From Eubacterium sp. (GTDB lineage: Bacteria; Bacillota; Clostridia; Lachnospirales; Lachnospiraceae), in contig JAGBNF010000024.1 in the NCBI GenBank assembly GCA_017634555.1, positions 1-47,081 on the forward strand: a stretch of 47,081 nucleotides of DNA, given 5' to 3'. Positions 16,505-46,216 of the stretch are shown piece after piece. Numbering within the stretch: position 1 is the stretch's first letter; the number at the start of each line of letters is the position of its first letter. The notes below the pieces were generated by a model, which had not been told where the DNA came from, searched no databases, and saw only the letters and a list, made by a program, of their open reading frames with translations. A program made the position numbers and the translations under genes.

Positions 16505-16885
16505 TTACTGTCTGTTTGATCTGATATAGAAAAGGATGAGTGCTGAGTTAAGTGAAAATGTAGCAACACCGATGAAGAGTGACCAGCAGCCTGCATTCAT
16601 TACCCAGATTCCTCTGAAAGCGATGTAAAGGGCGATTGATAATACAGTTGCAATGACACTGATTATTGCAGCCTTCCTGCCGTTACGCTTCTTAATTGTT
16701 TCATCCGAATATTCAAAACCGTTTGAGAAAAGTACTGTGAAGATTACGAGATACATCCAGAAGTCTTTATCCAGACTCTTTGAAAACTGTCCTAAGATTA
16801 TCATTGCTCCGACTACTGCACCAAAGATGTGCTCGCAAAATGCTAAGATGTTCTTATTTGATATGTTCTTTACTGTTGTATTCAT
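16505..16885 (-). CDS. Small 4-TM membrane protein, unknown family
   Basis: 126 residues; GGAGG lies 8 nt before ATG 16885. Four hydrophobic helices can be drawn: about 14-31 (FCEHIFGAVVGAMIILG), 42-55, 70-92 and 98-120. A short charged loop (FEYSDETIKKRNGRK) separates helices 2 and 3. No family recognised. It is a single-gene unit reading left, ending at the shared terminator. Its promoter region closely matches the TTGAC-repeat promoter of the BcrA-type ABC operon at 39401, so it is probably controlled by the same response regulator and may help cope with a membrane-active peptide. That role is inferred from the promoter only. Confidence 0.8.
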   Translation of the reverse strand: MNTTVKNISNKNILAFCEHIFGAVVGAMIILGQFSKSLDKDFWMYLVIFTVLFSNGFEYSDETIKKRNGRKAAIISVIATVLSIALYIAFRGIWVMNAGCWSLFIGVATFSLNSALILFYIRSNRQ

Positions 16886-16949: not shown

Positions 16950-17005
16950 AGAATACAACATGATGGTCAAGAAACCGGACAAGAGAAGGTCAAGAAATCG
17001 TCAAT
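16950..17005 (-). promoter_or_regulatory. TTGAC-repeat activator-type promoter (copy B)
   Basis: Read on the minus strand from 17005: TTGAC (17004-17000), 6 bp, TTGAC (16993-16989), 6 bp, TTGTC (16982-16978), 7 bp, TTGAC (16970-16966), then TTGTA, and a -10-like TATTCT at 16955-16950. At the -35 position there is only CCGGTT. In the first 40 bases 34 match the promoter at 39311. The 11-bp phasing puts the pentamers on one DNA face, like the TTGAT 'spa-box' pairs bound by SpaR-type response regulators. Confidence 0.8.
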
Positions 17006-17094: not shown

Positions 17095-17193
17095 AAATAT
17101 ATCGATAATAAAGTAAAATATATCGTGATTAAGATAAAATATATCGAAATACGATAAATTTATCTTGACATTCGATTTTTTCGGATTTATAAT
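17095..17193 (+). promoter_or_regulatory. Consensus promoter with 21-bp-phased triple repeat upstream
   Basis: A perfect sigma-A promoter, TTGACA (17165-17170), 17 bp, TATAAT (17188-17193). Upstream, AAATATATCG occurs exactly at 17095, 17116 and 17137, that is every 21 bp, followed by a perfect 12-bp palindrome GATAAATTTATC (17153-17164) touching the -35. This is the layout of a multi-site operator; the binding protein is not known. The remaining gap (16886-17094) holds the minus-strand promoter and otherwise nothing recognised. Confidence 0.8.
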
Positions 17194-17226: not shown

Positions 17227-18696
17227 ATGATGCAGACGGTATCGTATGAGTTAAAATATCTGGAAACCCCTGAGGAGCTGGATTTCAGAGAGAAGATGGC
17301 GAAAAGGCTTGGAGCGGCAACGCTGATATATGCAGTATTTTCAACATTTTGTCTTTATGAGAATCTATCAGGTATAACAATGCCGTTCTTCGGTGTTGCG
17401 ACCCTTATATATATGATTTACGGACTCAGGCTGAACGGTGTTGAAATTAAAAGGATGAGCTGGTTTTACGGTACAGTGATAATGTCGCTTACGGTATCGA
17501 ATTTCCTGACAGGCAATCCCACATTTCACATTTATAATAACCTGGGAATAGTCGCGATGATATTTATATTTCTGCTTCATAATGTTTATGATGACAGCAG
17601 ATGGAATTTCGGAAAAACAGCGAAGTCAATTATTGAGTCGTTCTTTCTCTCCATAGGTGCACTTGATGATTTCAGGAAAGATATGACAGTCATGAAACAG
17701 CGCAGCGCAGTCGGTTCCATGAACGTAGGAAAGAAGAGGGTTATAAAGTATGTATTTATAGGTCTTGTGATTTCGGTACCTGTTGTCGGTATTCTTACTC
17801 TGCTTCTTGCTTCGGCAGATATTGTTTTCAATGAAATGCTTGGCAGGATACTTGAATTTGATTTTGATTTCAAAATTGGAATGGGTATTCCGATCACATT
17901 TCTCATAATCTTCTTTGCGGCTTACTGCATCATGAGATTTTTCTCCAGGAAATCCATTCAGGAGGAAGTATATACAAACAGAAATCTTGAACCGATAATT
18001 GCGATCACAGTTCTTTCGATGATTTCGGTGGTATATATAATGTTCTCGGTTATTCAGTTTGTTTATCTGTTCCACGGAGAGGGAATGCCTCCGGGAGGTT
18101 ATACATATTCACATTATGCAAGAAAGGGATTCTTCCAGCTTCTTGCAGTAAGCATCATAAACTTTTTGATGGTTCTATATGTAAATAACAGGTTCAGAGA
18201 AAGCCGCGTGCTGAAGATCCTTATGACACTCATCTCTCTTTGTACATACATTATGATCGCATCAAGCTATTTCAGAATAAAAATGTACATAGATGCGTAT
18301 CTGCTTACAGCTTTAAGAATCTGGGTTCTTTGGGGACTTGCAGTGCTGTCGCTTCTGTTTGTGGCAGTGATCATATCAATATACAAGAATGACTTCCCGC
18401 TTTTCAGATACAGCATAATAGTTGTAAGCGTGCTGTATATTATGATCGGGTATGCCCGTCCTGACTATATAATTGCGGATTATAATCTGTCACATATAAA
18501 TACCGTAGATTCACGTGTGACACTGGATGATAAATATCTGGTTACTCTTTCAACGGATGCAGCGCCTGTTATCTATCAGTATGGCGGAGATCTGGCAGAG
18601 AGATACTTTATGAATGTTCAGCATTATGATAAGGAGAGGAGTTTGAGACAGTTTAATCTATCTTCTTATATCGCACATACGCTGGCAGAGGATTAA
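17227..18696 (+). CDS. DUF4173 (DUF4153-like) polytopic membrane protein
   Basis: 489 residues with about eleven to twelve hydrophobic helices spread over the whole length. The sequence resembles DUF4173 membrane proteins: an N-terminal helix block (GAATLIYAVFSTF, GVATLIYMIYGL, WFYGTVIMSLTVSNF), a hydrophilic loop (DDFRKDMTVMKQR), then helices including HYARKGFFQLLAVSIINFLMV and a C-terminal outside segment with DYNLSHINTVDSRVTLD...YLVTLSTDAAPVIYQYGGDLAERY. The function of the family is unknown. CGAGGTAAGTGCC leads to ATG 17227. It is a single-gene unit from a perfect-consensus promoter with phased repeats and ends at a strong terminator, so it is probably tightly switched. Confidence 0.85.
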   Translation: MMQTVSYELKYLETPEELDFREKMAKRLGAATLIYAVFSTFCLYENLSGITMPFFGVATLIYMIYGLRLNGVEIKRMSWFYGTVIMSLTVSNFLTGNPTFHIYNNLGIVAMIFIFLLHNVYDDSRWNFGKTAKSIIESFFLSIGALDDFRKDMTVMKQRSAVGSMNVGKKRVIKYVFIGLVISVPVVGILTLLLASADIVFNEMLGRILEFDFDFKIGMGIPITFLIIFFAAYCIMRFFSRKSIQEEVYTNRNLEPIIAITVLSMISVVYIMFSVIQFVYLFHGEGMPPGGYTYSHYARKGFFQLLAVSIINFLMVLYVNNRFRESRVLKILMTLISLCTYIMIASSYFRIKMYIDAYLLTALRIWVLWGLAVLSLLFVAVIISIYKNDFPLFRYSIIVVSVLYIMIGYARPDYIIADYNLSHINTVDSRVTLDDKYLVTLSTDAAPVIYQYGGDLAERYFMNVQHYDKERSLRQFNLSSYIAHTLAED

Positions 18697-38543: not shown

Positions 38544-39272
38544 ATGAAAAATATAATGATCGTTGATGATGATATGCATATAGGTAACATGCTTGAGGAA
38601 ACTCTCAGGCTTGAGGGTTATGAAGTGACGAGAGCGTACTCGGGAACGGAAGCACTTATGGTGCTGAAAAATGTGCGGCCGGATCTCATACTTCTCGATC
38701 TGATGCTTCCGGGTCTTACGGGAGAGGAAATACTTCCGATGATAGAGGGAATCCCGGTCATCATTGTCAGTGCAAAGCTGGATATGACAAATAAGGTTAA
38801 GCTTCTTCTCGACGGAGCAGCTGATTATGTGACAAAGCCTTTCAATATGGATGAGCTGCTGGCAAGGATAGTGGTTCAGCTGAGACAGGCGGAGCTGCTG
38901 AAGGCGGGAGCGGCTGCTGCAGGCAGTGCGTCAGCCGAAGGTGAAGCAGATAAAGAAGAATACCATTCAGATACAGAAATCACAGCAAGCGGTATAACCC
39001 TTGACTGGGAGCTTCATACAGTAAAGATTGACGGTGAGGAGGTTCCGCTTACAAGAACCGAATGCGCCATACTCCGAATCCTTATGACGGATGCGGGAAG
39101 ACCGATAGGCAGAAATACCATTCTCGATAAGATAAGCTATGATACTCCGGATTGTACGGAGCGTTCGCTGAAGCAGCATATAAGCAATATGCGTAAGAAG
39201 CTTCAGGCGGTTAACGGAGTGGATTATATAGAGGCTGTTTATGGGATTGGGTTTAAATTTATTAAACTATAA
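38544..39272 (+). CDS. OmpR-family response regulator of the peptide-resistance module
   Basis: 242 residues. Receiver domain 1-115 with acidic pocket Asp8-10, phospho-acceptor Asp52 (LLDLMLPG) and Lys in VTKPFN. A long Ala/Gly/Glu linker (about 118-148) is unusual. The C-terminal winged helix (about 150-242) has LTRTECAILRILM and RSLKQHISNMRKKL. It lies just upstream of ABC, two permeases and a histidine kinase, the arrangement of bacitracin/lantibiotic resistance modules. The TTGAC-repeat promoter between it and the ABC gene is its likely target. AAAGGAG lies before ATG 38544. Confidence 0.93.
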   Translation: MKNIMIVDDDMHIGNMLEETLRLEGYEVTRAYSGTEALMVLKNVRPDLILLDLMLPGLTGEEILPMIEGIPVIIVSAKLDMTNKVKLLLDGAADYVTKPFNMDELLARIVVQLRQAELLKAGAAAAGSASAEGEADKEEYHSDTEITASGITLDWELHTVKIDGEEVPLTRTECAILRILMTDAGRPIGRNTILDKISYDTPDCTERSLKQHISNMRKKLQAVNGVDYIEAVYGIGFKFIKL

Positions 39273-39310: not shown

Positions 39311-39366
39311 ATTGACGATATCTTGACACTTCCTTGGCCGGTTTCTTGACTATTACTTGGTAATAT
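39311..39366 (+). promoter_or_regulatory. TTGAC-repeat activator-type promoter (copy A)
   Basis: TTGAC at 39312 and 39323, TTGGC at 39334, TTGAC at 39346 and TTGGT at 39357: spacings 11, 11, 12, 11. The -10 is TAATAT (39361-39366) and the -35 position holds only CCGGTT, so the promoter should need an activator. A GC hairpin (39285-39299) without T-run lies upstream. Compare copy B at 16950-17005. Confidence 0.82.
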
Positions 39367-39400: not shown

Positions 39401-40315
39401 ATGGAATACATTGTAAGAACTAATGAAATTTGCAAATATTATAAGAACTTCAAAGCACTTAACGGTGTTACGATGAATATCCCGAAGGGTTCGATCTACG
39501 GTTTCGTAGGTAAAAACGGAGCAGGTAAGACAACTATGATAAGAATCCTTACAGGACTTCAGCTTGCAACCAAGGGAAGCTTTGAGCTTTGCGGAAAGAA
39601 AAGTGATTCCGCAGATATATATAAGGCAAGACGCCGCATGGGTGCGGTAGTTGAGTCACCTGCACTTTTCCAGGATATGACAGCAAGGGATAACCTGAAG
39701 CAGCAGTACATCAACCTCGGTCTTCCGAGCTATGAAGGAATAGATGAACTGCTTGAGCTGGTAGGTCTTTCAGATACAGGAAAGAAGAAGGTTAAGAACT
39801 TCTCTCTCGGAATGCGCCAGAGACTGGGAATTGCAGTTGCACTTTGCGGAAATCCGGATTTCATAATTCTTGATGAGCCGGTTAACGGACTTGATCCTCA
39901 GGGAATCATCGAGATCAGAGAGCTGATCCTTAAGCTCAACAGAGAGCAGGGTATCACAGTTCTTATTTCAAGCCACATTCTTGACGAGCTTGCAAAGCTT
40001 GCTACACATTACGGATTTATAGATAAGGGCGTTATCATTAAGGAAATGAGCGCCGAAGAGCTTGAAGCAGCATGCCGCAAGAGCATCAGAATGAAGGTCA
40101 GCGATACAGGAAAGCTTGCAAGGATCATGGAGAAGATGGGAGTTGAATACACTATTATCAGTGATGATTCTGCAGACGTTTATTCAACAATGAAGTTCTC
40201 CGATATTGCTTCAATATTTGCAAAGGAGGGCTGCGACATCATTTCCATGGAGGAGCATGATGAGAGCCTTGAAGGCTTCTATCTCTCACTTCTGGGAGGT
40301 GAGGCAAATGTATAG
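39401..40315 (+). CDS. ABC transporter ATP-binding protein, BcrA/lantibiotic-immunity type
   Basis: 304 residues. Walker A GKNGAGKTT (about 36-44), Q-loop VVESPALFQ, signature FSLGMRQR, Walker B FIILDEPVNGLD, H-loop SSHIL. The extra C-terminal domain (about 225-304) is typical of BcrA/MutF/NukF-type ATPases that export lantibiotics or bacitracin. Works with the two permeases that follow. TAGGAG lies 10 nt before the ATG. Its stop overlaps the next start by 8 nt. Confidence 0.93.
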   Translation: MEYIVRTNEICKYYKNFKALNGVTMNIPKGSIYGFVGKNGAGKTTMIRILTGLQLATKGSFELCGKKSDSADIYKARRRMGAVVESPALFQDMTARDNLKQQYINLGLPSYEGIDELLELVGLSDTGKKKVKNFSLGMRQRLGIAVALCGNPDFIILDEPVNGLDPQGIIEIRELILKLNREQGITVLISSHILDELAKLATHYGFIDKGVIIKEMSAEELEAACRKSIRMKVSDTGKLARIMEKMGVEYTIISDDSADVYSTMKFSDIASIFAKEGCDIISMEEHDESLEGFYLSLLGGEANV

Positions 40316-41075
40316 AATGCTTTGCAGCGATCTTCGCAGACTTTTTTCATCGAAATTGTTTTATCTTGGACTCATATTTTATGCGTTCCTTTATACCGGA
40401 ATTAATCCTTTTATCATGTGGATAATACATCTCTTTACACATGATTCACCGGGAGCTGCAGATATTGAGCTTGCTGGTCAGGCAGGAACTGCAGCGATCG
40501 CCATTGCAATTTTCGTTACGTCATTCGTGATGAAGGAGTTTACCGATGGAGCCATCAGAAACAAGCTTTCATCGGGAGCAAAAAGAAGCGATATTTACTT
40601 ATCATCAGTGATAACAATGATCGTTGCCACTATAGCATTTCAGGCAGTATCGCTTGTATCGATTCTTATATTCGGAAATGTGTTTATGGCCGGATTTGAA
40701 TCACCGATGACATATATACTTCAGATAAATGTTATATATCTTATCGCAGCGGTTTCAATCACCATATTTGATGTGACACTCATGTTCATATTTGCAGGAA
40801 ATAATATAAGCCTTTTTGCAGCACCGTTTATAGCTGTTGCAATCAAGTTTTTGGCAATGATGGTATTGGAGGATCTTTATCCTGAAACGGGAGAGCTTCT
40901 CATTTCGGGAACAAGACTTGCAGTTTTCACTTTTATAGATAAATATATTCCTTTTATGCACCTTATAAATTTCCCGAGATTTGGCTGGGATGCATATATA
41001 ATAGGAGGTGCTGTTCTCTCAGCAGTATCATTAATCCTTGGAATGGTTATATTTGAGAAGAAAGATTTAAAGTAG
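40308..41075 (+). CDS. ABC-2 type permease, first subunit
   Basis: 255 residues from ATG 40308 (MYRMLCSDLRRLFSSKLFYLGLIF), which overlaps the ATPase stop; GGGAGGTGAGG lies upstream. Six TM helices, with the first after a basic N-terminus and a conserved FVMKEFTDGAIRNKL segment between helices 2 and 3, as in MutE/BcrB-type permeases. Partner of the ATPase and the next permease. Confidence 0.88.
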   Translation: MYRMLCSDLRRLFSSKLFYLGLIFYAFLYTGINPFIMWIIHLFTHDSPGAADIELAGQAGTAAIAIAIFVTSFVMKEFTDGAIRNKLSSGAKRSDIYLSSVITMIVATIAFQAVSLVSILIFGNVFMAGFESPMTYILQINVIYLIAAVSITIFDVTLMFIFAGNNISLFAAPFIAVAIKFLAMMVLEDLYPETGELLISGTRLAVFTFIDKYIPFMHLINFPRFGWDAYIIGGAVLSAVSLILGMVIFEKKDLK

Positions 41076-41084
41076 GTAATTGAA

Positions 41085-41825
41085 ATGTTAAATGTACTTA
41101 AGGCAAATTTAAACAGACTTTTTAAGAATAAATTTTTTATCGGCGGATGCATTCTTGCCGCAGCTATCACAGTATTTTTCATCCATAATGCAGAGACTGT
41201 ACTTGATGTACATTTCAGATCTGATGACATGGCACTTGAGCTTATCAGTATCGGAGTTATCGCATTTATTTCAATCTTTGCACCGATCTTCCAGAGTGCC
41301 GAGTATTCAAGCGGTACCATCAGAAATAAGGTTGCAATGGGAATTACACAGAATAAGATTTATGCAGCACATTTCTTAACAATGGTTGTTGCTTCCATCG
41401 TTATCATACTGTGCTGGCTTATCGGAGGAGTTATCGCAGGTGTTTCGATAAGCTCATGGCTTATTGCCTACAGTGTAATACTTATCTTCAGTATGATCGC
41501 ATATTCATCCTTTATGACATTTATCGGAATGAGATTCAGAAAGGTTGTTACATCAGCTACCATCGGAGTACTTGCATTTCAGGGAGCTTTTACGGCAGTT
41601 ATCATCATCTTCATGCTGATATCACAGCACTTCGGAACAACACTTGGAACGATTCTTACATATATCGGAAACAGCATTGCAATGGGACGCTGGTTTGCTA
41701 ATTCACAGCTCAGCGATCCTAATCTGAATCCGGGAGTGATCGTTTCAATCATCCTGTCACTTGTAATGGCAGCAATCTACTATATGATCGGTACATTTAA
41801 GATCAATAAGAGAGACCTTCAGTAA
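41085..41825 (+). CDS. ABC-2 type permease, second subunit
   Basis: 246 residues, six TM helices, beginning MLNVLKANLNRLFKNKFFIGGCIL. The FQSAEYSSGTIRNKVAMGITQNKIY loop matches the equivalent loop of the first permease, so the two genes are distant duplicates (MutE/MutG-like pair). Starts 9 bp after the first permease. Ends 17 bp before the kinase gene. Confidence 0.88.
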   Translation: MLNVLKANLNRLFKNKFFIGGCILAAAITVFFIHNAETVLDVHFRSDDMALELISIGVIAFISIFAPIFQSAEYSSGTIRNKVAMGITQNKIYAAHFLTMVVASIVIILCWLIGGVIAGVSISSWLIAYSVILIFSMIAYSSFMTFIGMRFRKVVTSATIGVLAFQGAFTAVIIIFMLISQHFGTTLGTILTYIGNSIAMGRWFANSQLSDPNLNPGVIVSIILSLVMAAIYYMIGTFKINKRDLQ

Positions 41826-41842: not shown

Positions 41843-42724
41843 ATGGGAATTGCACTGGGGATATGTATAGTTATCATATGCATATTGTTACTTAAAATTT
41901 ATATGATGAAGAAGTCAGTCCGGGAGATCCGGACTGATTTTGGTGATAGAGGAAAGCTGGATTCCAATTCTCTGATCGGCGTTTCATCCAGAGATAAGGA
42001 CATCAGGGCGCTCACGAATGATATGAATCATGTGATAGTCGATCTGAGGAAGGCTTTCCATAAATATAAAGAGGGTGACAGGGAGGTTCGTACCGCCATA
42101 ACCAATATCTCTCATGACATCAGAACTCCGCTTACGGCAATCTGCGGATACCTGGCACTTATGAAGAAGCAGGACAAATCGCCGGAAATGGAACGCTACC
42201 TCGATATTATCGACGAGCGTGCGGAGCATATGAAGGCGCTTACAGAAGGACTCTTCAGTTATTCGCTTATTCTCAATTCCGAGGAACAGGTTGAGCTTGA
42301 GGACGTGAGTCTTAACAAGGTTCTTGAGGACTGTATCATGGAGTATTACGGTGCACTCAGCGAGAGAGGAATTGAGCCGACAATCGATATCACTGAGAAT
42401 AAGATCGTGAGGAAGCTTGATAAGACACATATCGACAGGGCTATATCAAATGTAATAAGCAACGCGATAAAGTACAGTGACGGCGACTTTGATATAAAGC
42501 TTAAGGATGACGGAACGATGATCTTTTCAAACAAGGCATCGGGTATTACATCGGTTGAGGCGGCGCGTCTTTTCGACAGATTCTATACGGTGGAGACAGG
42601 CAGAAATTCCACGGGACTGGGTCTTTCAATCGCTAGAACCTTCGTTGAACAGATGGGCGGAGAGATAGGAGCCGAATATAAGAACGGAAGACTTGCGATA
42701 AGGATCTCATTTCCGGAAAGATAG
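41843..42724 (+). CDS. Sensor histidine kinase of the peptide-resistance module
   Basis: 293 residues with a single N-terminal TM helix (about 2-20) and no large outside domain, so the signal is probably sensed in the membrane or through the ABC transporter, as in BceS-type kinases. DHp domain with phospho-acceptor His91 (NISHDIRTPLTAI), N-box ISNAIKYS, FDRFYTV F-box, and TGLGLSIA G2-box. The G1 box is degenerate (MIFSNKASG in place of DxGxG), which could change ATP binding. Likely partner of the response regulator at 38544. GGGAGGTGCGAT precedes the ATG, and a strong terminator follows. Confidence 0.92.
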   Translation: MGIALGICIVIICILLLKIYMMKKSVREIRTDFGDRGKLDSNSLIGVSSRDKDIRALTNDMNHVIVDLRKAFHKYKEGDREVRTAITNISHDIRTPLTAICGYLALMKKQDKSPEMERYLDIIDERAEHMKALTEGLFSYSLILNSEEQVELEDVSLNKVLEDCIMEYYGALSERGIEPTIDITENKIVRKLDKTHIDRAISNVISNAIKYSDGDFDIKLKDDGTMIFSNKASGITSVEAARLFDRFYTVETGRNSTGLGLSIARTFVEQMGGEIGAEYKNGRLAIRISFPER

Positions 42725-42858: not shown

Positions 42859-42921
42859 ATGGAAAATGTAAGATGCAGACATCAGATAGAAAATGAGTTA
42901 CAGATTTTCGGGAGGTGGATT

Positions 42922-43662
42922 ATGAAAGGTAACGCAGCAATCAGAATAAACGGACTTACAAAGGAATATTCGGGAGTTAAGGCAGTCAAGGGACTGAACC
43001 TTGAAATATATGAGGGTGAGCTTTTCGCACTGCTGGGAGTTAACGGTGCGGGAAAGACAACAACCATCAGAATGCTTACAGGGCTTTCGGTACCGACGGG
43101 CGGAAGCGCAGAGATATTCGGAAAGGATATCAGAAAAGATATAGATGATGTAAAGAGGCTTGTGGGAATATCTACACAGGATACGGCAGTTGCCGATAAC
43201 CTTACGGTTGAAGAGAACCTGAGATTTATGGCAGGCATTTACTTCCCAGATGAGGGAAAAGCTAAAGCTGCTAAGAGAGTTGAAGATGTAATCGGTACAT
43301 TTAAGCTGGATGAGGTAAGAAATAAGAAAGCTAAGACCTTATCGGGAGGCTGGCAGAGAAAGCTGTCCATCGCAATGGCAGTCATCGGAGAGCCGAAAGT
43401 TATCTTCCTTGATGAGCCGACACTGGGACTGGATGTTCTCGCGAGAAGAGAGCTCTGGAAAGCGGTTGAAGCATTGAAGAAGAACACAACAATAATTCTT
43501 ACGACACATTACATGGAAGAGGCCGAAGCACTGGCTGACAGAATAGGTATCATGATAAAGGGAAATCTGGTAAAGCTCGGAACACTTGAAGAGCTTGAGA
43601 AGGATACAGGCAAGAAGGGACTTGAGGAAATCTTTGTTACCGTTGCCGAAGGAGAGGAGTAA
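42922..43662 (+). CDS. ABC transporter ATP-binding protein (drug/peptide export type)
   Basis: 246 residues from ATG 42922 (MKGNAAIRING), set by CGGGAGGTG 7 nt upstream; the frame from 42859 begins inside the promoter. Walker A GVNGAGKTT, Q-loop STQDTAVA, signature SGGWQRKL, Walker B VIFLDEPTLGLD, H-loop THYMEEAEAL. The 'GGWQRKL' signature differs from the usual GGMRRRL. Gap of 3 bp to the permease gene. Confidence 0.93.
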   Translation: MKGNAAIRINGLTKEYSGVKAVKGLNLEIYEGELFALLGVNGAGKTTTIRMLTGLSVPTGGSAEIFGKDIRKDIDDVKRLVGISTQDTAVADNLTVEENLRFMAGIYFPDEGKAKAAKRVEDVIGTFKLDEVRNKKAKTLSGGWQRKLSIAMAVIGEPKVIFLDEPTLGLDVLARRELWKAVEALKKNTTIILTTHYMEEAEALADRIGIMIKGNLVKLGTLEELEKDTGKKGLEEIFVTVAEGEE

Positions 43663-43665
43663 ACC

Positions 43666-44436
43666 ATGAACAGAACACTTAATTTTGCAAAAAGAAATCT
43701 GATGGAGATTTCAAGAGATGTACTTAGCTATATATTCTGCGCAGCATTTCCTATCGTTATGCTGATCATTATGACACTTGTAAATTCGAGCATTCCGAAG
43801 GAGGCAGGAATGACCATCTTCAGGATCGATAACCTGGAGGGTGGAATCATCATATTCGGACAGACTTTCGTTATGCTTTTTACAGCCATTAATCTTGCCA
43901 AGGACAGGGGCGGCTCATTCCTGATCAGGCTTTTCGCAACACCGATGAAGAGCAGTGATTTTACAAACGGATATATACTTCCTATGATACTTGTTGCGGT
44001 TGTTCAGGCAGTGATCTCACTTATCGTTGCAGTTCTGATCGCACTTATTGTCGGAGTAGAGATCAAGCTTCTCGGCTTCCTGCTTGTACTTGCAGCAATG
44101 CTTCCATCGGCATTAATGTTTATTGCAATCGGAATCATTTTCGGAACACTCTTCAATGAGAAGGCAGCTCCGGGACTTTGCTCGATCATCATTTCCCTCG
44201 GATCCTTCATCGGAGGTATCTGGTTTGATGTAGAGGGAGCCGGAGGAGTTATATGCAAGATCAGCAAATGTCTGCCGTTCTTCTACTGCACAAAGACTGT
44301 GAGATCAGCCATTAAGCTTGACCTTACATGGGAGACCTTCGGACTTCCGATCATTATAGTAAGTGCTTCTGCTATAGTTCTTTCGATACTTGCAGTATTC
44401 TGCTTCAAGAAAAGAATGAAGGCAGATCTGGCATAG
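43666..44436 (+). CDS. ABC-2 type permease
   Basis: 256 residues with six TM helices and the ABC-2 layout (N-terminal MNRTLNFAKRNLMEISRDVLSYIF; loop DRGGSFLIRLFATPMKSSDF between helices 2 and 3). Partner of the preceding ATPase. GGAGG lies in the ATPase stop region, so translation is coupled. Confidence 0.9.
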   Translation: MNRTLNFAKRNLMEISRDVLSYIFCAAFPIVMLIIMTLVNSSIPKEAGMTIFRIDNLEGGIIIFGQTFVMLFTAINLAKDRGGSFLIRLFATPMKSSDFTNGYILPMILVAVVQAVISLIVAVLIALIVGVEIKLLGFLLVLAAMLPSALMFIAIGIIFGTLFNEKAAPGLCSIIISLGSFIGGIWFDVEGAGGVICKISKCLPFFYCTKTVRSAIKLDLTWETFGLPIIIVSASAIVLSILAVFCFKKRMKADLA

Positions 44437-44463
44437 GACAGAGCTTTTAAGATAAGTCATCGC

Positions 44464-44492
44464 TTGAAATAGAAGAGCGAATTAACTATACT
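44464..44492 (+). promoter_or_regulatory. Sigma-A promoter for LytTR-DUF3021
   Basis: TTGAAA (44464-44469), 17 bp, TATACT (44487-44492). Gives the regulator pair a promoter of its own, separate from the LytTR-site promoter at 42805. Confidence 0.6.
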
Positions 44493-44561
44493 GAATCAGG
44501 AAGGGACACGCAGAAAAATGTGGTTCGGGACAGATGTATTCCCGGCAGCGTGCTTAGACTG

Positions 44562-45035
44562 ATGCAGATAAAGACCATTATCGACAAGAAATATAAGGAG
44601 ACCGAAATCCATGTCCTGAAGGACAGTCTCGATGATGAGGTGAGAAATGTGGTGCGTGAACTGCACGGCATTTTCGATGAGACGCTTACAGGTACGGACG
44701 AGAGAGGTAACAAATGTGTGCTGAGACCCCTTGATATAGTAAGCTTTTATGCTGAAGGTCAGAGGGTTTTTGCCATTGATGATTCCGGAAGATACAGTGT
44801 TTCCAGCAAGCTTTATGAGCTTGAGGAAAAGTATGGTAAATCGGGATTTGTCAGAATTTCGAAGTCAGAGGTCGTGAATTTTAAAAAGATAAAGAGTCTT
44901 GATATGAGTTTCACGGGAACTATCAAGGTAATAATGAAGAATGGTTATGAAACCTATACTTCAAGAAGAAATGTAGCGAAGATCAAGGAGATTTTGATGA
45001 AGAATCGAGGTGAGGGCAGTGAAAGAGATACTTAA
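44562..45035 (+). CDS. LytTR-domain DNA-binding regulator
   Basis: 157 residues from ATG 44562 (MQIKTIIDKKYKETEIHV). Its ribosome-binding site is weak, and GTG 44550 is an alternative. Residues about 50-150 form the LytTR domain (LRPLDIVSFYAEGQRVFAIDD..., FVRISKSEVVNFKKIKSLD, and the C-terminal SRRNVAKIKEIL). There is no receiver domain, as is normal for LytTR proteins paired with DUF3021. Binds the 21-bp-spaced site at 42805, by inference. The next gene overlaps its end by 17 nt. Confidence 0.9.
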   Translation: MQIKTIIDKKYKETEIHVLKDSLDDEVRNVVRELHGIFDETLTGTDERGNKCVLRPLDIVSFYAEGQRVFAIDDSGRYSVSSKLYELEEKYGKSGFVRISKSEVVNFKKIKSLDMSFTGTIKVIMKNGYETYTSRRNVAKIKEILMKNRGEGSERDT

Positions 45036-45471
45036 AAGGGGATTTATCGGATTTGCTATGTCGGCCCTTATCGGTACTGCGGTTAACTTGATAATCGATA
45101 TAATAGCAAATGCGGTGGGAGCTGAGAATTTTATTTCCATGTCTCCGGAATTCAGGAGCCTTTTTCCGACCCCTGTGATAGCGGCATATGTAAATGTATT
45201 TTTGTATGGAATAATAGGGGCTACATTTTCTGTGATGAGCTTTATTTACGATGTGAATAAGCTGGGCGTGGTGCTTCAGAATATCATATACTTTTTGGTT
45301 ACGGCTCCGGTTGCCGTAGGGATAGCGATTCTGATATGGCAGCTTCATCATTATCCGGAAGCGATAATCTCAACGATTGCGGGCTACGGATTATGTTATT
45401 TGATAATAGGAATATTGCAGTACAGGAAGCTTAAGGATGATATAAGACAGATCAATGAAGAACTGGAGTAG
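45019..45471 (+). CDS. DUF3021 membrane protein
   Basis: 150 residues from GTG 45019 (GAGGTGA 5 nt upstream; GTG 45010 is possible). Four TM helices (about 8-27, 55-75, 90-108, 118-135), starting KEILKRGFIGFAMSALIGTAVN, a typical DUF3021 start. The family is the usual partner of stand-alone LytTR regulators, probably holding them at the membrane until a signal arrives. The stop is 4 bp before the next response-regulator gene. Confidence 0.9.
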   Translation: MKEILKRGFIGFAMSALIGTAVNLIIDIIANAVGAENFISMSPEFRSLFPTPVIAAYVNVFLYGIIGATFSVMSFIYDVNKLGVVLQNIIYFLVTAPVAVGIAILIWQLHHYPEAIISTIAGYGLCYLIIGILQYRKLKDDIRQINEELE

Positions 45472-45475
45472 GCGG

Positions 45476-46216
45476 ATGGATAGTAAATACTGCATCCTTC
45501 TTGTGGAGGATGATTATGCTCTGGCAATGGGAACTGAATATACGCTGAAGGCCGAAGGCTACGGAATCCGTCATGCGAAGAATCTTCAGGAGGCAAGACA
45601 GGCAGTGGAAGCAGCAGGAGACGGAGAGATAAATCTGATACTCCTTGACGTTATGCTTCCTGACGGAAGCGGCTTCGACTATCTGGAGCAGCTGAGGGAT
45701 GAACAGGTGGAGATACCGGTGATCTTTCTTACGGCAGTGGGGGATGAGGCAAATATAGTAAGAGGACTCGATCTCGGAGCGGACGACTATGTGACGAAGC
45801 CATACCGTGTGAAGGAGCTGCTGTCGAGAATTTCCGCAGTACTTAGACGCGAGGAGCGTTTAAGAAGAATGGCGGCAGATCAAAGAAATAGTGATAATCA
45901 GGTCAGTGAGTCTATAGGAGATGAATATACCTTCGGTTCACATGTACTTAACGTTTCACAGTTCAGATTATATAATAACGGGGATATGGTTGAGTGTACG
46001 CCTTCAGAGATAAGACTGCTCAGGGAGTTTCTCAGGAACAGCGGGATAGCTCTCACCAGAAATCAGCTGATCGAAAAGCTGTATGATACGGAGAACAGCT
46101 ATATAGATGACAATACGCTTTCGGTATATATAAAGCGTCTTCGCGATAAGCTCGGGGAGGATGCGGGATATATAAAGACTATAAAGGGAATCGGCTACAG
46201 ATTCTCGGAGGATTGA
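45476..46216 (+). CDS. OmpR-family response regulator
   Basis: 246 residues from ATG 45476 (MDSKYCILLVEDD). Receiver with acidic Glu11-Asp12-Asp13, phospho-acceptor Asp58 (LLDVMLPDG) and Lys in VTKPYRV; then a winged helix (about 150-246) with ECTPSEIRLLREFL and DDNTLSVYIKRLRDKL. It differs from the regulator at 38544. GGAG lies in the DUF3021 stop region. Its TGA shares one base with the kinase ATG. Confidence 0.94.
   Translation: MDSKYCILLVEDDYALAMGTEYTLKAEGYGIRHAKNLQEARQAVEAAGDGEINLILLDVMLPDGSGFDYLEQLRDEQVEIPVIFLTAVGDEANIVRGLDLGADDYVTKPYRVKELLSRISAVLRREERLRRMAADQRNSDNQVSESIGDEYTFGSHVLNVSQFRLYNNGDMVECTPSEIRLLREFLRNSGIALTRNQLIEKLYDTENSYIDDNTLSVYIKRLRDKLGEDAGYIKTIKGIGYRFSED

Follow-up and report, generated by a model that had tools for sequence, protein, structure and literature searches.

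The two matched arrays of TTGAC-type boxes found 22 kb apart in the window (the whole stretch of 47,081 nucleotides analyzed here) serve, with high probability, as operators for an OmpR-type response regulator, the product of the plus-strand gene at 38544..39272. When phosphorylated, most simply by the short kinase of its operon, the regulator would activate an ABC transporter operon and an orphan gene for a small membrane protein together. The array is conserved beside orthologues of this regulator, and the letters of the boxes covary with its recognition helix. One activator for both promoters, as the earlier note had proposed, is thus the best reading, and we infer it with strong support. 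Across related bacteria, the switch sequence and the DNA-reading residues of the regulator change together.

The operon array is located at 39312..39350 on the plus strand and consists of the boxes TTGAC-TTGAC-TTGGC-TTGAC. The remote array is located at 16966..17004 on the minus strand and reads TTGAC-TTGAC-TTGTC-TTGAC. In both arrays the boxes follow one another at steps of 11, 11, and 12 bp, and box 3 is degenerate (TTGGC and TTGTC, respectively). The -10 elements are TAATAT (39361..39366, plus strand) and TATTCT (16955-16950, minus strand), each 10 bp after box 4. In each promoter the hexamer CCGGTT, a weak -35 element inside the array, precedes the -10 by 17 bp, and box 4 sits in the spacer between the two elements. 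When the reverse complement of 16950-17005 was compared with 39311-39366, identical bases were found at 34 of the first 40 positions and at 43 of 56 overall. The recount agrees with the 34 of 40 reported in the earlier note, which had also correctly placed CCGGTT at the -35 and a TA-type -10 at the same distance in each promoter. Its TTGAC units on an 11-bp step were confirmed as four TTGAC-type boxes, but the steps are not uniform and the third box is degenerate. The possibility that the boxes are simply a row of ordinary -35 elements was rejected, given that the -35 is CCGGTT, that box 4 lies in the spacer, and that the box letters change with the helix of the regulator.

The match between the two sites is not a product of chance, in agreement with the earlier note. 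The second-best 40-bp match to the 39-kb array within the window is 23/40. A two-box sub-pattern with one mismatch allowed was matched five times versus a mean of 0.52 after shuffling, and five matches were reached in none of 100 shuffles. The genome (2.33 Mb in 47 contigs, 72% complete) was scanned with the long array pattern at three mismatches, and exactly the two sites of the window were returned, with no matches for the reversed-pattern controls. The exact pattern TTGAC-N6-TTGAC-N6-TTGAC gave no match in the pattern scan because box 3 is degenerate. A sequence-only model, R1, which spans the -10 and was trained on 27 sites (including the window pair and two sites of genome G064), detected the two arrays with E values of 5.6e-17 and 2.8e-16; the next match in the genome has an E value of 0.46. 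No third copy was found by the pattern (three mismatches) or by R1 in this genome and, since the assembly is 72% complete, a third copy could lie in the missing part.

The operon array belongs to a module, encoded entirely on the plus strand, with the order OmpR-type regulator, array, ABC ATPase, two permeases, and short kinase. The regulator consists of a receiver domain (PF00072, 6.4e-24) and a winged helix (Trans_reg_C, PF00486, 1.4e-16), both over cutoff, and its recognition helix, RSLKQHISNMR, comprises residues 207-217. Between the receiver and the DNA-binding domain it carries about 20 more residues, rich in A, G, and E, than the Ruminococcus proteins (218 codons matched versus 239 residues). 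The best NCBIfam model for the ATPase (39401..40315) is the lantibiotic protection ATPase, under the cutoff of that model. Permease 1 (40308..41075, about 255 aa, with a start picked by eye within the open reading frame 40206-41075) and permease 2 (41085..41825, about 246 aa) each have six hydrophobic segments, as counted by a simple hydropathy scan. The histidine kinase (41843..42724, 293 aa) has one N-terminal hydrophobic segment and a HisKA domain that starts at residue 83, a predicted layout that leaves no room for an extracellular domain. Directly behind the kinase, positions 42859-46213 encode the ATPase and permease of another ABC transporter, a LytTR-domain protein, and another OmpR-type regulator, whose recognition helix is different.

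Among 61 genomes of the same genus, the TTGAC array was found in 11 and a regulator orthologue (E ≤ 1e-55) in 11, with both in 10 genomes and one genome having each alone (Fisher p 1.3e-9, uncorrected for shared descent). The genome with the array and no orthologue at the threshold is G012, where the array (L114, 7297-7335) precedes a TetR-like reading frame, named by eye. The regulator-bearing genome without a TTGAC array is G001, whose regulator has D207 and M211 instead of R and Q and is separated from the ATPase by about 20 bases. The TTGAC pattern is blind to TTTAC or TTAAC arrays, and the pattern scan of G001 covered the TTGAC type. Another genome, G020, has a regulator with R207 and Q211 at a contig end (L122, G020:C206) and a TTGAC array on another contig (L121, G020:C119), where it precedes a small membrane protein of 72 aa.

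The same association was found in other samples. The array pattern occurs in 12 genomes among 146 relatives, and the reversed controls in none; this tally and that of the 61 genus genomes both include a match inside a low-complexity TTGGC stretch (L019, G007:C52) in a genome that has another site. When 80 regulator-related loci of named genomes were collected, the array was present with at most three mismatches in all 11 loci whose regulators are 60-64% identical, and the remaining 69 had no array at up to five mismatches. The 11 loci are all labeled Ruminococcus, including R. albus 8, and in them the array lies within about 150 bases of the end of the regulator gene, with the exception of L029, where it is found 1.6 kb further on, just before the ATPase. 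One outcome that the earlier note had set against its own reading was a lack of conservation; the array is instead conserved in relatives, beside orthologues of the 38544 regulator.

R1 was used to search 397 genomes of the family, a sample that spans 334 genera. Matches were obtained in 81 genomes versus about 4 expected at an E value of 0.01 per genome. After removal of the two window sites and one overlapping match in G270 from the 95 matches, 61 of the 92 remaining places were found to lie between a regulator and an ATPase, and 38 of the 47 that score at least 24 bits do so. The fractions are 10/12 at 40 bits or more, 13/14 at 30-40, 15/21 at 24-30, 17/21 at 20-24, and 6/24 at 17-20 bits. 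The matches of 17-20 bits are mostly due to chance, since 18 of these 24 are without either neighbor. In a search that started from the regulator in the same genomes and scored at most seven candidates per genome, 12 of the 15 orthologues from genomes other than our own had an R1 match directly downstream, including that of G064, which was itself used in the training of R1. The exceptions are G089 and G410, with no adjoining R1 match, and G432, with a match 1.3 kb away; some orthologues, such as that of G474, fall outside this search. A five-unit TTGAC repeat of different layout was seen in G270 (L157, around 1501); roughly 1 kb downstream of it lies the gene for a regulator that is less closely related (45% identity across the available part).

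The geometry of the array was compared in 81 loci. This table omits loci with no regulator match above 150 bits or no ATPase within 2 kb downstream, and L113, L122, L137 (the same place as L128), L157, L186, and L240 were removed by hand. The steps between boxes, from a parse of the boxes alone in which steps of 11 or 12 were permitted, are 11,12,12 in 55 loci, 11,11,12 in 23, and 11,12,11 in 3. In 77 of the 81 loci, a TANNNT hexamer begins precisely 10 bp beyond box 4. Elsewhere in the range of offsets 4 to 16, the same hexamer was found 15 times at offset 5, 5 times at 12, 4 times at 13, and never at the remaining nine. Because 60 of the 81 loci stem from the R1 search, the table is enriched for arrays, and R1 includes the -10 in its span; a distance of 10 bp is nevertheless present in 20 of the 21 loci that came from the pattern or the regulator, and in all 11 named loci, for which the regulator was the sole query. 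This combination of a poor -35 with a short, constant gap between the last box and the -10 would suit an activator acting in place of the -35.

The gene behind the remote array (16505..16885, minus strand) encodes an orphan membrane protein of 126 aa with three strong hydrophobic segments by hydropathy scan. Its neighbors are a YfbK-like gene in convergent and a DUF4153 gene in divergent orientation. The protein gave no match over a cutoff in Pfam or NCBIfam. A structural model predicted from 12 sequences has four helices with a mean pLDDT of 78.4, and a Foldseek comparison of this model with solved structures returned no match at E ≤ 0.001 among 156. The gene was found in 4 of the 61 genus genomes, all four of which have the regulator, an array of the gene's own, and the adjoining YfbK-like gene. 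In the three relatives the protein is 52-55% identical to that of the window, and the arrays have been kept. The regulators of the four genomes form one clade, so the arrangement would have arisen in a single event and been kept since. A DUF4153 gene close to the remote gene is shared by the window, G006, and G044; none was seen in G026, where the contig is 12.5 kb long. In the interval that separates the remote array from the DUF4153 gene at 17227, three copies of AAATATATCGW were found at a step of 21 bases (17095-17147). They have the look of an operator of its own for the DUF4153 gene, which is on the plus strand. On present evidence, the gene for the 126-aa protein appears to belong to the regulon.

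Other genes of the membrane or envelope are also associated with the array. In 8 of the 11 named Ruminococcus loci, the array is followed first by the gene for a protein of similar size that shares a G..I.N stretch with the 126-aa protein. A profile comparison of the remote gene product with this first-gene protein gave a probability of 93%, an E value of 3.7e-7, and 20% identity. This single comparison, of a kind in which hydrophobic proteins can inflate the scores, is suggestive, and the two proteins may be distant homologues. Such gene traffic is seen repeatedly. A membrane protein resembling erythromycin esterase is encoded inside the operon in G032, G042, G007, and G048. Two such proteins have arrays of their own in G064 (L128, 7148-7212, and L129, 7389-7454), and one of these genes is divergent from the regulator. 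In G447 (L188, 938-1761), the gene for a PAP2-family protein is preceded by a second array, in which the order of boxes is that of the operon array. This membrane and envelope theme among the predicted targets would fit a response to envelope-active peptides.

The boxes read TTGAC, TTTAC, TTAAC, or TCAAC, depending on the locus. For each locus the box letter was taken as the majority of boxes 1, 2, and 4, which are mixed in 3 of the 81 loci. The three boxes agree in 48 of 81 loci versus 8.2 after shuffling, and in 20 of 52 versus 7.9 when the loci with R207 are left out; neither value was reached in any of 2000 shuffles. When the 152 variable columns of the regulator were ranked by the information they hold about the box letter, column 211 was first (1.15 bits), column 207 second (0.99 bits), and column 199 third (0.89 bits), a ranking that controls in part for descent, as all columns share one tree. 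R207 is paired with a G box in 29 of 29 loci, and without R207 a G majority is found in 2 of 52 (L141 and L143). M211 is paired with a T box in nine of nine loci, and Q211 in the absence of R207 with a T box in four of five. The relationship between helix and box is not clean at every residue: the 22 loci with V211 have an A box in 14 and a T box in 7, and T211 is paired with CA in four of six. In an HMMER alignment, residues 207 and 211 correspond to Asn212 and Ser216 of PhoP, in the numbering of the structure paper. PMC4832192 places these two residues of the PhoP–DNA complex in the middle of the groove, at the central bases.

Shared descent is the weak point of this covariation. On the tree, R207 changes at least four times and G boxes at least five times. 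The supported independent pairs for R207 and G number two, with concordance in 1.8 of 2 on average, which is not significant; those for Q211, M211, and T211 are equally few, and none is significant. We consider it possible, with the odds somewhat against it, that residues 207 and 211 set the middle of every box and that all boxes, including those of the remote targets, are rewritten together when the helix changes. The code would then assign TTGAC to R/Q, TTTAC to M211, mostly TTAAC or TTTAC to V or I at 211, and TCAAC to T211 (four of six loci). If true, this reading code would be portable among OmpR-type regulators, whose regulons could then be predicted from sequence.

Several alternatives to joint activation by the 38544 regulator were considered. 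A different OmpR-family protein might bind the arrays, such as the one encoded at 45455-46213 or a PhoP-like regulator, with the 38544 regulator merely a neighbor. According to PMC4415409 and PMC4832192, direct repeats spaced by about one turn are common binding sites of OmpR-family regulators, and the window does contain a second regulator with a DNA-binding domain. However, the helix of this second protein is different, the array and the 38544-type regulator co-occur across genomes, and the box letter tracks the 38544-type recognition helix above any other column. Binding by another family member is thus unlikely.

It is also conceivable that the 38544 regulator uses the arrays as repressor or dual-use sites, as the boxes extend over the -35 region and the spacer, and a protein bound there could also block the polymerase. 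Against this, CCGGTT is a poor -35, so the promoter would need help, and in 77 of 81 loci box 4 and the -10 are exactly 10 bp apart, which is what contact with the polymerase would lead one to expect; we regard repression or dual use as quite improbable. Least probable of all, and by our estimate very remote, is a recent duplication in which the second site was carried along with its DNA and has no regulatory link to the first. The sites do match at 43 of 56 bases, but the similarity fades beyond the promoter, three relatives, with proteins 52-55% identical to that of the window, retain the remote array, and elsewhere unrelated genes carry remote copies (those for the erythromycin-esterase-like proteins of G064 and the PAP2-like protein of G447).

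Under the preferred reading, activation of both promoters by the 38544 regulator, phosphorylation would most simply be carried out by the short kinase encoded at 41843-42724. Two dimers of the regulator, bound head to tail, would fill the four boxes. With the last box ending 10 bp before the -10, the bound regulator would substitute for the missing -35 and recruit RNA polymerase, which is class II activation as in PhoB. The array at 39 kb would switch on the transporter operon and with it the kinase itself, and the array at 16.9 kb would switch on the orphan small membrane protein in step; the latter probably acts at the membrane with or beside the transporter. The signal may be a peptide antibiotic (bacitracin or a lantibiotic), a proposal whose sole basis is the resemblance of the transporter.

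What began as a coincidence of two sites would become a defined regulon with a syntenic remote member. For the otherwise anonymous 126-aa membrane protein, the peptide-type transporter encoded 22 kb away becomes a candidate partner that can be tested. With so many naturally occurring helix-box pairs, a long-standing question can be addressed directly in vitro, namely the choice of DNA by OmpR-family regulators and the rewriting of operators without breakage of the regulon.

No description of this array was found in searches of an open-access library that leaves out most papers in subscription journals. The operators of SpaR and NisR are short direct repeats of TTGA type upstream of the -10 in several co-switched promoters, with two boxes that read TTGAT, whereas the arrays described here have four boxes of TTGAC. 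The likeness to SpaR boxes drawn in the earlier note holds for the general architecture of the OmpR family and goes no further, since the letters and the number of the units differ. The PHO box, as presented in PMC4415409, is built from direct repeat units with a pitch of 11 nt, to which a response regulator of the winged-helix type binds in head-to-tail fashion. The arrays described here are likewise head-to-tail repeats about one helical turn apart, with putative binding by the 38544 regulator. In systems of the PhoB/PhoP type the activator replaces the -35, and the core sites of PhoP in Bacillus subtilis have four repeats. The box letters differ from those of the PHO box, however, the predicted targets of the arrays comprise a transporter along with proteins of the membrane or envelope, and the regulator scores 144.2 bits versus a cutoff of 296.2 for the PhoB model.

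The transporter resembles those of the CprABC-CprK/CprR and LanFEG systems, which PMC5786555 describes as an ATPase with two permeases of six transmembrane segments each and a controlling two-component system. The likeness consists of the two permeases with six hydrophobic segments each and of an ATPase whose best NCBIfam model is the lantibiotic protection ATPase, at 228.3 bits versus a cutoff of 309.75 for TIGR03740. The kinases of the four systems tabled in that source have extracellular loops of 112-117 residues, whereas the kinase here has none; in addition, the regulator gene here precedes the operon and the kinase gene is at its end. In the lack of an extracellular sensor domain, and in its position beside a peptide-type ABC transporter, the kinase resembles that of BceRS-BceAB, as outlined in PMC5786555. 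The Bce permease, however, is given there as one protein of 626-651 residues with 10 transmembrane helices, in contrast to the two proteins of about 250 residues found here; BceAB is defined by one large permease that has an extracellular domain. Membership in the Pho, LanFEG/Cpr, or Bce families as defined was rejected, as a model cutoff or a defining feature failed in each. The system appears to combine an operator of the PHO-box kind with a transporter of the LanFEG/Cpr kind, and it would work like these systems by resemblance rather than by demonstrated membership.
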